The notes under the pieces were generated by a model that saw nothing but the letters and a program-made list of their open reading frames with translations, searched no databases and was not told the DNA's origin. The translations under genes were made by a program, and so were the position numbers. Positions 3,983 to 64,000 of a stretch of DNA of 64,000 nucleotides are shown piece by piece (position 1 is the first letter of the stretch; each line of letters starts with the position of its first letter). This DNA is from Paenibacillus azoreducens (lineage in GTDB: Bacteria; Bacillota; Bacilli; Paenibacillales; Paenibacillaceae), in contig NZ_AP025343.1 of the NCBI RefSeq assembly GCF_021654775.1, positions 5,361,501-5,425,500 on the forward strand, written 5' to 3'.

Positions 3983-4807
3983 GTGAGGCTCAGCAATGTC
4001 TGGAAGTATTTGGTCGTCATTCTGGGGGCAGCGTTTATCGCATGCGGATTCAATCTTTTCCTGGTTCCCCATCAGCTATTAAGCGGGGGCGTATCGGGGC
4101 TTTCCATGTTAGTGAATTATTTTACGCGCATGGATCTAAGTATTTTGTATTTTGCATTTAACGTTCCGATCTTGGTCGCCGGTTGGTTCCAACTGGGCAA
4201 GCGTTTTATCGTGCTTAGCATTGTATCCGTCGTGGCCACGACCTGGTTTATTGCGATCGTGCCTGTTCATGCATTGTCATCCGACACGCTGCTCGCATCG
4301 GTCTTCGGAGGCGTTTTGGTCGGAATTGGAGCAGGCATTTCCTTCAGGGCGGGCGGTTCCTCGGGGGGGTTCGACATTGTCGGCTCCATCGTAACGCGCT
4401 ACCGCGATTTTCCGGTCGGCAATGTGCTTGTTGCCATGAACGGGCTGGTTATTCTCGCCGCCGGATATCTGCAGCAGGACTGGAACCTGGCCTTGGCTTC
4501 GATGATATCGATCTTCGTGTCGGGCAAGGTCGTGAATTTTATCCATATCAGCCACTACAAGGTCACCGTATATATCATTACCAATGAAACGGATGCGCTT
4601 CTGACCAAACTGCTCGAGCTTCCCCGCGGCGTTACGAAAATCAAAACCGAAGGTGCGTTTTCCCATAAATCCAAAGACATGCTGATGACGGTTACCACCC
4701 GGTACGAGCTGCAAGAACTGAAGCGGATCATCAAACAAACCGATCCGAAGGCTTTCGTCAATATCGTCGAAACCGTAGGTATTATGGGTTCGTTCCGCAG
4801 AGGCTGA
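3983..4807 (+). CDS. YitT family membrane protein
   Basis: 274 residues from a GTG start behind GAGGTGG. The first ~195 residues hold five to six hydrophobic segments with the family phrases LSGGVSGLSML and GISFRAGGSSGGFDIV, typical of the YitT/DUF161 fold. The last ~70 residues (YIITNETDALLTKLLEL through VNIVETVGIMGSF) are a soluble DUF2179 domain, thought to bind a small ligand. Function in the family is unknown; membrane location is clear. The start agrees with the usual family length (about 280). Confidence 0.88.
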   Translation: MRLSNVWKYLVVILGAAFIACGFNLFLVPHQLLSGGVSGLSMLVNYFTRMDLSILYFAFNVPILVAGWFQLGKRFIVLSIVSVVATTWFIAIVPVHALSSDTLLASVFGGVLVGIGAGISFRAGGSSGGFDIVGSIVTRYRDFPVGNVLVAMNGLVILAAGYLQQDWNLALASMISIFVSGKVVNFIHISHYKVTVYIITNETDALLTKLLELPRGVTKIKTEGAFSHKSKDMLMTVTTRYELQELKRIIKQTDPKAFVNIVETVGIMGSFRRG

Positions 4808-61086: not shown

Positions 61087-61137
61087 AAAGAACACAAACG
61101 CTTGGGCTCCGCCAGAGTCCAAGCGTTTGTTCGTTTT
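61087..61137 (-). terminator. Bidirectional terminator
   Basis: ACAAACGCTTGG and CCAAGCGTTTGT flank GCTCCGCCAGAGT. It ends the reductase gene and the four-gene overlapping operon coming from the right. Confidence 0.85.
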
Positions 61138-61405
61138 AATGATCCTTATCATCCATTCTCTTCTCCAAAAAAGCAACGATAGTCCCGGCGCTCGATAGGT
61201 TATCCAGTGTTAAATCCTCATCGCCAAAGCTGATTTCAAACGCCTGCTCCAACTGAACGACCAGCGCTACAGCAGTGACGGAATCAAGTATGCCGTGCTG
61301 CCCGAGCAGACATGTTTCCATTGACACCTCTTTGGTTCCCAATAAAGCTTGCACGATTTGGACAACCTTGTACTCCAATTCCCGGCGATCCCTTCTTTCA
61401 ATCAT
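61136..61405 (-). CDS. Acyl carrier protein
   Basis: 89 residues; ATG 10 bases after AAAAGGAG, overlapping the FkbH-type gene by 8 bases. The phosphopantetheine attachment Ser is in LLGQHGILDSVTAVALV, replacing the usual DSL by DSV, so a thioester carrier is likely. The remainder (LEQAFEISFGDEDLTLDNLS) is a normal acidic ACP helix bundle. Last gene of the overlapping operon; expected to carry the acyl group made by the HAD protein. Confidence 0.9.
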   Translation of the reverse strand: MIERRDRRELEYKVVQIVQALLGTKEVSMETCLLGQHGILDSVTAVALVVQLEQAFEISFGDEDLTLDNLSSAGTIVAFLEKRMDDKDH

Positions 61406-62441
61406 TTAAAGACAACTCCTTTTCCATGTCCAACCCAATCCATTCAGGCCCTGTATAACTATAGGGGAACGGCAGCGCATAGATCGATTCCTCCTGCCCC
61501 TGTAAGCGGCACCTAAAACCTAACAGCTGCAGCAGCAATAAAGCAGGGCGATTCCGTTTTTGTGATCGATAGCGGCACACTGCTTCGGTCAGCAGCGGCC
61601 ACTCTTGCTGTATCCGGGATAGAACCGCTCCCAAAAAAGCAGTACCCATCCCCCGCCCCTCCATACGGCAGGAAATACAAAAAAGCTCGATTTCCGCAGC
61701 GGAATCATGAACATGTATCATCGCCATCGCTACAGTTCCATGATCGCCAAAGCGGTCCTTCATTTGTCCGATATAAATGCATCTCCGTTCCGAACCCAAA
61801 TAGGATTGGATGACAGCAGGCGTGGGAGCCTGAACGAGATTATTGAATTGAGTCGTACGGGATGCCAACTCGGCCATGCGCGGTAAATCCCCATCCCTCG
61901 CGCCTCGTACGGATAATCTCATCTTGCATGAATGCAGAAACTCCTCTCTCGTACCGCTAAACCGCTGCTCGGCAGTGTTCCGCGCCTGTCGCAACATCAT
62001 TTGTTGGCGGCGCCTGGATGTTTCCTCCGAGAGAGTAGTCTGAAATTCGGGGAGCTCGGGAAGTCCCGCCGCGGCATTGGCTTCGTATATATAAATGTCC
62101 GGCAGGTACGTGCCGACTTCGTACCGTTCATACGGATTGTCATCGATAAATGCGAGTGAATCGATGCCGATGTTCATTTCTTGAGCGATTTTACGAATGC
62201 TGGTTGCTTTTGACCCCCATCCGAATTGCGGATATAGGAAAAAGTGATCAATCCCAAGCTCAACCAGTTTTTGAAATGCCCGATCAGGGTCGTTGCGACT
62301 GGCAATACTCTGCAAAACCCCCCGCTGATCAAGTGTGTGCAATACATCCTGGACGCCCGGACGCAGCACAACATGCCCATCCTCAGACAATGTTCCCTGC
62401 CATAACGTATCGTCAAGATCCCATACCAAGCATTTAATCAT
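61398..62441 (-). CDS. FkbH-like HAD-IIIC protein
   Basis: 347 residues; ATG after GGGAGG and overlapping the GNAT gene's stop by 4 bases. N-terminal HAD domain: LVWDLDDTLWQGTLSEDGHV (nucleophile Asp), SIASRNDPDRAFQKL and SLAFIDDNPYERYEV. C-terminal ~150 residues form a GNAT-like domain (MEGRGMGTAFLGAVLSRIQ). FkbH proteins transfer a phosphoglycerate-derived glyceryl group to an ACP. The associated ACP here supports that. The oxidoreductases that make methoxymalonyl units are absent, so the glyceryl unit may be used as such. Confidence 0.9.
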   Translation of the reverse strand: MIKCLVWDLDDTLWQGTLSEDGHVVLRPGVQDVLHTLDQRGVLQSIASRNDPDRAFQKLVELGIDHFFLYPQFGWGSKATSIRKIAQEMNIGIDSLAFIDDNPYERYEVGTYLPDIYIYEANAAAGLPELPEFQTTLSEETSRRRQQMMLRQARNTAEQRFSGTREEFLHSCKMRLSVRGARDGDLPRMAELASRTTQFNNLVQAPTPAVIQSYLGSERRCIYIGQMKDRFGDHGTVAMAMIHVHDSAAEIELFCISCRMEGRGMGTAFLGAVLSRIQQEWPLLTEAVCRYRSQKRNRPALLLLQLLGFRCRLQGQEESIYALPFPYSYTGPEWIGLDMEKELSLND

Positions 62442-62908
62442 GGTTCCTCCCCGCCTGCGATGCCGCATCCGCTATATTCCATCGTCAGATGAGTTGGCAT
62501 AAAGCCATATTTTTTATACAGGGTTCGCATCGGCAGATTATGAATATGGACATGTCCTACGATTCTTTGGGCACCTGTTTGCTTTGCGAATGAAATTCCA
62601 GCTTCAAACAGCTCGTCAACGCCTGCAGTACCGCGATAAGGCTCGCTAACGTAAAAACTCCTGAACTGCATATAAGCCTCATGTGTAACCGAATTCACCC
62701 TGAGACTCATCCACATCCATCCCGCGGCGCAGCCGTCTATGTCCAATACCAGCATTCCGGACCGTTCGCGAATCATAGCCTTCTCCAGCTTGCGCAAGTG
62801 AAAAGCCAAGTCCGTAATGGCTTCTTCGCCAAAAGAGATCTCAGAAATCTCCCGTTCCCATTTCGCTACCTCGGCCAAATCACGTTTTTCAATCTGCCGT
62901 ATGATCAC
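62438..62908 (-). CDS. GNAT family acyltransferase
   Basis: 156 residues; the GTG at 62908 lies 9 bases after AAAGGA; an ATG three codons earlier touches it. The core shows MLVLDIDGCAAGWMWMSLR, FRSFYVSEPYRGTAGVDELF (acyl-CoA binding loop) and HIHNLPMRTLYKKYGFMPT. It overlaps the bpsA gene by 20 bases and the FkbH gene by 4. It may move an acyl group from the ACP or from acetyl-CoA to an amine. Confidence 0.88.
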   Translation of the reverse strand: MIIRQIEKRDLAEVAKWEREISEISFGEEAITDLAFHLRKLEKAMIRERSGMLVLDIDGCAAGWMWMSLRVNSVTHEAYMQFRSFYVSEPYRGTAGVDELFEAGISFAKQTGAQRIVGHVHIHNLPMRTLYKKYGFMPTHLTMEYSGCGIAGGEEP

Positions 62909-64000
62909 CCTTGTCATTCCTTTCTTGTGATACCCGTTTTTTGGCTACCATCTCAAACGTATCATGGCCGCAGCCCGTGCATCCTTCATTCTTAAGCTGC
63001 TCGATGGTCGCAAACTCTCCATTGATGCCGACATACACATCTTTTGAGCACTGCTTACAGCGGTAGGTGCGCAGTGTTTGTTTCACTTCGCCTGTGTACA
63101 AGGCGTCCGTGAATTTCTCTGAATATTCCGGTTTCGTCTGATCCGTTGTCCGCAGAATGAACATCTGGCTCCGGTTGGCGATCATTTCCGCGCCATCGTA
63201 GGCGTTGAATTGCGGGAAATTAGCGCTGACCGTCAGCCCCATGCGGACAAACTCCCGCTGCATGGCAAGCATGAACGCCGGCGATTTATGGGCAAAAGAC
63301 AGAAAAATCGGCACTCCCTTCTCCCTCTTCAATGCCTGTATGCCGCGCGATACGAACAGACTCATCCCCTGAAGCGTATAGGGAGGATCCGTAAAGAAAC
63401 AATCATATTGCCCGTGCAGATTATCGGGCAGCGGCTCCCTTAAGTCCAACCGACGGCACCCAATCGGCATTCCATGCTCCTTCGCAATCGTTTCAATACA
63501 GCTCAAAAACCGTTCGTCAATATCCACAACATCCACATGCGTAACGGTATGCCCGCAATCCGGGAACAACCGCTGCAACAGCAGACCAATAGAGACACTC
63601 ACGAGATCATCATCGCCAACACATAAAATCTTCTTTCCAATCAACGCATGCTGCTTCAAACAAAGGATAGCCCGGCGCAGGCTTGTTTCCGGCGTACATT
63701 TGGACTGGTCGATCTGAACATCCACGGACGGCCGCAACGAAAAAAGTTCCTCCAAGATTGCCAGCACATCTTTGAGGCTCTCGATCCATTTCGTCTCATC
63801 AAGCAAATCGTGATAAAGGGAATGATCCAGTCCATGGTACCCCCATTCCCGCTCGATCCACGCGAGTCCGTCAGCCGTGCAGCGCACGCCGCGATCCTGC
63901 ACAAGCGCCCCCGATTTAATTAATTCCCGTTTGATTGCCGCAGCCACAGGCGTCGGCAGCAGCGTTTTACGTGCCAGCTCTTTCGTGGAAATACCCGGTT
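62889..64000 (-). CDS. bpsA: Branched-chain polyamine synthase-like protein (partial)
   Basis: The reading frame is open to the window edge (no start within view; GTG 63947 is internal), at least 370 residues. The order is an N-terminal winged-helix region (STKELARKTLLPTPVAAAIK), a Rossmann domain with ILCVGDDDLVSVSIGLLL and CFFTDPPYTLQGMSLFV, and a C-terminal zinc-ribbon-like part with CKQC and CTGC. The motifs GDDD and DPPY match N4-bis(aminopropyl)spermidine synthase (BpsA/DUF43), which adds aminopropyl groups from decarboxylated SAM. First visible gene of the overlapping operon. A related tRNA or small-molecule role cannot be excluded. Confidence 0.85.
   Translation of the reverse strand, partial: PGISTKELARKTLLPTPVAAAIKRELIKSGALVQDRGVRCTADGLAWIEREWGYHGLDHSLYHDLLDETKWIESLKDVLAILEELFSLRPSVDVQIDQSKCTPETSLRRAILCLKQHALIGKKILCVGDDDLVSVSIGLLLQRLFPDCGHTVTHVDVVDIDERFLSCIETIAKEHGMPIGCRRLDLREPLPDNLHGQYDCFFTDPPYTLQGMSLFVSRGIQALKREKGVPIFLSFAHKSPAFMLAMQREFVRMGLTVSANFPQFNAYDGAEMIANRSQMFILRTTDQTKPEYSEKFTDALYTGEVKQTLRTYRCKQCSKDVYVGINGEFATIEQLKNEGCTGCGHDTFEMVAKKRVSQERNDKGDHTAD

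Follow-up and report, generated by a model that had tools for sequence, protein, structure and literature searches.

A recurring four-gene cassette of Paenibacillus azoreducens: a possible polyamine-acylation operon behind a conserved leader

Four overlapping minus-strand genes, bpsA, gnat, fkbH and acp, are located at the right edge of the window (the whole stretch of 64,000 nucleotides of Paenibacillus azoreducens that was analysed; the genome is a single contig of 7,316,152 bases). These genes recur as a unit in relatives, FkbH and ACP occur as fusion proteins, and the GNAT is similar to a polyamine acetyltransferase but lacks the usual CoA loop, which makes glyceryl-type polyamine acylation the best reading of the set. 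The cassette is conserved and selected, presumably for an acylated polyamine, and this chemistry is plausible. Together with its upstream leader it may constitute an operon that is self-contained, modifies polyamines and is controlled in response to translation, a tentative reading that we favor while placing it somewhat short of probable. The initial annotation had proposed a short pathway that acylates a branched polyamine with a glyceryl or related unit. Polyamine acylation by a recurring unit survives from this proposal; the term glyceryl is taken over from the protein family, and the polyamine may or may not be branched, the acidic carriers of Tk-BpsA being not recognisable. If true, the reading joins carrier-protein chemistry, mesophilic-bacterial polyamines and ribosome rescue. 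It would also give BpsA a role in mesophilic Bacillota, and provide a compact leader and a defined set of four genes in which acyl transfer from an ACP to a polyamine could be studied.

In the proposed pathway, BpsA would use decarboxylated SAM to add an aminopropyl group to a polyamine, and FkbH would convert 1,3-bisphosphoglycerate to glyceryl-S-ACP on the operon's own ACP (both steps as expected for the respective families). The GNAT would take the acyl group over from the ACP and attach it to one of the polyamine's amines, with a glyceryl-type polyamine amide as product; this step is deduced by elimination, from the altered P-loop and from the Dpa-like fold. The leader would gate transcription. 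One strand of a long helix, P1, would consist of the last codons and the stop of its upstream ORF (uORF); P2 comes next, and then a terminator that may have an antiterminator. While a ribosome is stalled on the uORF, P1 would be unable to form, which would change the outcome at the terminator. In other Paenibacillus the cassette ends a PKS/NRPS line, lacks the leader and probably supplies the acylated polyamine of that line.

The features of the locus are as follows (positions in the window):

62889..64000, continuing past the edge to genome position 5425591, minus strand: 3' part of the bpsA-like gene (BpsA_C/DUF43, PF01861; 400 aa in full)
62438..62917, minus strand: GNAT gene, 159 aa from the longest start (PF00583; catalytic-type Tyr134, no canonical CoA P-loop)
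61398..62468, minus strand: stand-alone FkbH-type gene with a HAD part and a C-terminal part, 356 aa from the longest start (TIGR01686)
61136..61405, minus strand: acyl carrier protein gene, 89 aa, Ser42 in GILDS (PF00550 and alignment)
61094..61130 (4094-4130 of locus L002), no strand assigned: terminator-like hairpin in the gap that separates acp from the convergent flavocytochrome c gene, from a consensus scan only, which found 8 hairpins in the region where 4.7 are expected

The complete bpsA gene starts with GTG (L002 5889-7091, 400 aa). Matches to BpsA_C, GNAT, TIGR01686 and PP-binding models bear out the assignments of the initial annotation (polyamine synthase, GNAT, FkbH-type protein and ACP). 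It had also given overlaps of 20, 4 and 8 bases. The last value is confirmed; taking the longest start of each gene gives 29, 31 and 8 bases. An overlap of 20 results from a GNAT start at the fourth codon and one of 4 from an FkbH start at the tenth codon, so both values depend on the choice of start. On its upstream side, bpsA is separated by 539 bases from a TetR-like ORF (recognised by eye). The operon contains no FabH-like, dehydrogenase or methyltransferase gene. Purifying selection acts on all four genes, as judged by pN/pS values of 0.12-0.37 per gene in comparison with three relatives.

The GNAT is encoded in 24 of 392 genomes of the order. bpsA adjoins it in all 24, and the complete order bpsA-gnat-fkbH-acp is present in 21. 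The remaining three cassettes are decayed with bpsA still open. When a second collection was scanned with the GNAT alignment, 20 loci were found (19 from Paenibacillus and one from a Bacillota MAG), 17 with the full cassette; this collection contains in part the same assemblies as the 392, and the two counts are not independent. The initial annotation had asked for conserved neighbourhoods and named four genes that never occur together as the outcome speaking against it. This is false, and the four-gene order recurs at the above frequencies (21/24 and 17/20). In the decaying cassettes of loci L101, L102 and L103 (and of L045 and L048), bpsA is open, gnat is broken or cut and fkbH is broken or gone.

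Of 100 genomes searched for a BpsA homologue, 11 have one, that of P. azoreducens included. Around these homologues, the bpsA-gnat-fkbH-acp order is present in four further loci; the others carry bpsA without the cassette. Among 398 genomes of the phylum, only that of P. azoreducens itself has the GNAT at E 1e-12, and no plasmid-borne copy was found at E 1e-8. GNAT relatives are also clostridial and other. The 3,175-base contig of a Bacillota MAG (L047 1-3175) carries diverged, adjacent gnat and fkbH genes. About 1 kb beyond fkbH lies an ORF that by eye is ACP-like and has a tail of repeats; the 3,175-base piece contains no bpsA. Among the proteins listed (120 of 140 GNAT matches and 120 of 428 FkbH matches), 13 of the 120 GNAT proteins have a longest contig equal in size to that of one of the 120 FkbH proteins, which hints weakly at linkage. 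A literature search, covering mostly titles and abstract openings, returned no description of this gene set, and the text of PMC11107197 contains neither 'BpsA' nor 'Paenibacill'.

FkbH reaches 216.8 bits against TIGR01686 (cut-off 146.65) over the full-length model, and it is the only match in the whole genome. The HAD residues are present; Asp17, Asp19, Thr21, Lys87, Asp109 and Cys267 are invariant. The ACP matches PF00550 (E 1.9e-6), with the phosphopantetheine serine invariant in all five rows of the alignment. FkbH and ACP form a single fused protein at two loci (L030 and L039), and four database proteins with PF00550 (P0135, P0136, P0141 and P0142) are fusions of the same kind. In the FkbH/ACP pairs of tetronate and methoxymalonyl pathways, such as Mad7/Mad8 of tetromadurin (PMC7489565), FkbH likewise stands beside a stand-alone ACP. 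The present pair differs from them in being accompanied by a GNAT and an aminopropyltransferase, with none of the FabH-like, dehydrogenase and methyltransferase genes.

The GNAT matches PF00583 (E 2.7e-9), and a Foldseek search with its model places it closest to the polyamine acetyltransferase Dpa; with VIA, Dpa is tied with Ard1 (18.4 and 18.1). The GNAT fold and the catalytic-type tyrosine are both present, the tyrosine being found in 118 of 120 homologues. In contrast to Dpa, which shares these two features according to the available part of PMC10267138, the GNAT has no canonical CoA P-loop and adjoins FkbH and ACP. The consensus Q/RxxGxG/A is absent from all 15 rows of alignment A5 (by eye) and present in 1 of 118 homologues (the gap-free ones among 120 of the 140 listed); all five solved relatives listed have it. 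The missing P-loop is consistent with the ACP as the putative acyl donor. Alternatively, the GNAT could N-acetylate the BpsA polyamine with acetyl-CoA as Dpa and SSAT do, FkbH and the ACP making a glyceryl unit for another purpose. The closest solved relatives use CoA, and CoA-using GNATs with atypical P-loops exist (PMC4964394, in its available part). Acetylation of this kind is nevertheless improbable, given the near-absence of the consensus among homologues, the persistence of FkbH and ACP next to the GNAT (21 of 24 genomes), and a stand-alone cassette with no other obvious user of an ACP.

Twelve of the 21 complete cassettes stand alone, among them that of P. azoreducens. The other nine lie downstream of a PKS/NRPS protein, as scored by matches to its AT, C and embedded FkbH domains. 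The initial annotation had named a full polyketide or peptide synthase beside the genes as another outcome speaking against it. The nine linked relatives show this outcome. It is not seen here, where no PKS/NRPS-like ORF was found in the 12.9 kb read to the right (judged by ORF lengths and sequence). In the one genome in which it was scanned, the linked protein has the order KS, AT, carrier, C, FkbH, carrier. The cluster there extends over about 45 kb and comprises NRPS and PKS modules together with genes for a beta-lactamase-family protein, a thioesterase, 3HCDH, FkbH and acyl-CoA dehydrogenase. Outer neighbours of stand-alone loci vary, except within the elgii group. A tree of 34 bpsA rows chosen by hand (L024, a split ORF, was left out) unites the linked genes in one clade (100/100). 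The lone bpsA genes, six in number, group at two positions among the stand-alone cassettes. The position of lone bpsA inside the stand-alone clade fits a loss of gnat-fkbH-acp, with repeated gain as an alternative.

These linked cases raise the alternative that the cassette is a building-block module for a PKS/NRPS antibiotic and that stand-alone copies are leftovers or act in trans to a distant assembly line. The further FkbH parts and the 3HCDH and acyl-CoA dehydrogenase genes of the linked cluster would agree with this. With more than half of the complete cassettes alone, purifying selection on the P. azoreducens copy, linked bpsA confined to a single clade and condensation domains at only two places of the P. 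azoreducens genome, both more than 1.3 Mb from the operon, such a role appears quite improbable, and a self-contained operon is preferred here. The linked cassette can be likened, by description only, to the paenilamicin type, an NRPS/PKS product with a C-terminal spermidine in the available part of PMC9054821: both are Paenibacillus NRPS/PKS systems, here with a polyamine enzyme, whereas the stand-alone cassette has no assembly line.

Two further proteins were observed around linked cassettes. A DMFA2_C/Laminin_G_3 protein is encoded directly 3' of one (L025 12335-14674), and ORFs of similar size come after the cassette in L026 and L027. At the start of a linked PKS/NRPS cluster (L050 6839-7858) there is an ORF with a weak match to BtrH_N (26.8 bits, below the cut-off of 29.7), a family of ACP-dependent acyltransferases.

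The leader of bpsA is located just outside the window (genome positions about 5425610-5426000), which is why it went unnoticed in the initial annotation, and it is strongly conserved in relatives. Each of 21 bpsA-side leaders, hand-chosen among the fetched loci, has a Shine-Dalgarno sequence and a uORF of seven codons, ATG TCN NNN NNN GTT CTT AAC TAA, with TCG (16), TCT (3) or TCC (2) as the serine codon. The end of the uORF, GTTCTTAACTAA, can pair with TTAGTTAAGAAC (P1). GTTAAGAAC starts 92-102 bases further on in 19 loci and 182 bases on in one; it is changed in P. tianmuensis. In P. tianmuensis and two lone-bpsA genomes the partner strand is changed and the uORF side is not, which favors a coding constraint on the uORF side. 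The leader motif is absent from all 18 linked-type stretches that were retrieved (15 with the cassette; several represent one assembly twice).

Covariation was inspected in alignment A8, which holds 20 of the 21 leaders (32O-W was left out for an insertion). Double-sided changes are found in eight of nine pairs of P2, four of ten pairs of the terminator and none of the twelve pairs of P1, nine of which never vary; since P1 hardly varies, there is little covariation support for this pairing itself. The covariation score is 0.262, compared to 0.133 for shuffled alignments (0 of 500 as high) and at most 0.101 for slid versions. A candidate antiterminator of six pairs fits most rows and is broken in 3 of 20. 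The sequence and structure of the leader as a control element are well supported; its signal and direction are inferred. Rfam gave only three matches, all sub-threshold, in the P. azoreducens region and none at E 0.1 in seven loci. The leader terminator is followed by a second hairpin. In P. azoreducens, where it lies between leader and bpsA, this second strong hairpin with its U-run (L002 7198-7238) gives a sub-threshold caiA match.

In the order, 154 of 392 genomes contain the core pattern of the leader, and in the phylum 5 of 398; the reversed pattern, used as a control, gave 0 in every row listed. A sample of 56 loci (36 returned by the pattern scans and 20 picked by hand, so that proportions are not random) gave 58 readings and, after removal of four other-strand palindromes (MISAVLN), 54 leaders. 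A MutS2-like gene follows in 44, bpsA in nine and neither in one (L115), where the next ORF resembles a group II intron reverse transcriptase by eye. Two of these readings, L144 and L148, come from the same place, and what counts as mutS2-like in L138 is a mere remnant before bpsA. The ATG rule gave no reading for L134, where a mutS2-like gene follows, and for L156, which has a non-ATG start and then a BpsA-like ORF (by eye). P. azoreducens itself has a second leader (L110 from 1504, near genome position 905,424) with the uORF MSVVVLN and the same elements, 5' of a mutS2-like gene.

In the elgii group, leader, mutS2-like gene and bpsA form a joint operon. The two genes overlap by 4 bases in A3, tyrfis, elgii and ehimensis; in MZ04-78.2 the mutS2-like gene ends 4 bases before bpsA. 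P. tianmuensis retains only a C-terminal remnant of the mutS2-like gene between leader and bpsA. With 587 bits, the P. elgii protein exceeds the TIGR01069 cut-off of 400, and its best match is the MutS2 of PDB 7qv3 (residues 1-507 of 660); Pfam gives MutS_V only. The upstream neighbour of the elgii group is hence ruled out as a metabolic partner.

Ribosome-mediated attenuators with short uORFs precede ribosome-protecting genes, and MutS2 acts on collided ribosomes. The leader shares with such attenuators the Shine-Dalgarno sequence, the short uORF, a helix, a terminator and, often, a MutS2-like gene downstream. It differs in its seven-codon uORF ending in VLN-stop, the missing Rfam match and bpsA as a second target. 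Its position before MutS2-like genes, also in P. azoreducens, makes slowed or blocked ribosomes the likely signal. A wider, speculative and on balance unlikely reading is a translation-stress regulon of Paenibacillales. The MxxxVLN-stop leader peptide, a minimal one of the arrest type, would sense slowed ribosomes and induce a MutS2-like rescue ATPase; in some lineages the same transcript would also encode a pathway for a polyamine, acylated and perhaps branched, with a helping or shielding effect on the ribosome. A sister cassette would be carried by antibiotic assembly lines, perhaps for ribosome-targeting polyamine antibiotics.

The bpsA product has the BpsA_C domain (PF01861, E 7.8e-43) and the BpsA fold, with a strong match to BpsA structures, some of which contain bound aminopropylspermidine or spermidine. 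Asp160-Asp162 are invariant in all 11 rows and align to the GDDD motif of Tk-BpsA, which contains the Asp that orients dcSAM. The Asp of DPP and Tyr298 are also retained; Glu259 of Tk-BpsA is unmatched. Tk-BpsA possesses an acidic C-terminal cluster that carries the aminopropyl group (PMC12979288, section 11). Such a cluster is not recognisable here by eye, the alignment ending before this region; the C-terminal region has the invariant Glu335 of YTGE and then a Cys4 ribbon. Domain, fold and GDDD are thus those of the known BpsA (EC 2.5.1.128) of Thermococcus kodakarensis and Thermus thermophilus, whereas the ribbon-like extension, the mesophilic Bacillota host, the lack of a recognisable carrier cluster and the acylation genes in the operon set the protein apart. 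Aminopropylation of a non-polyamine target, for instance RNA or protein, followed by acylation there, would accommodate the ribbon, the unmatched Glu259 and carriers, and the leader that ties bpsA to a ribosome-related gene, but is highly doubtful in view of the retained residues, the polyamine-bound structures and the resemblance of the GNAT to polyamine enzymes. The genome also has speD and speE-type genes.
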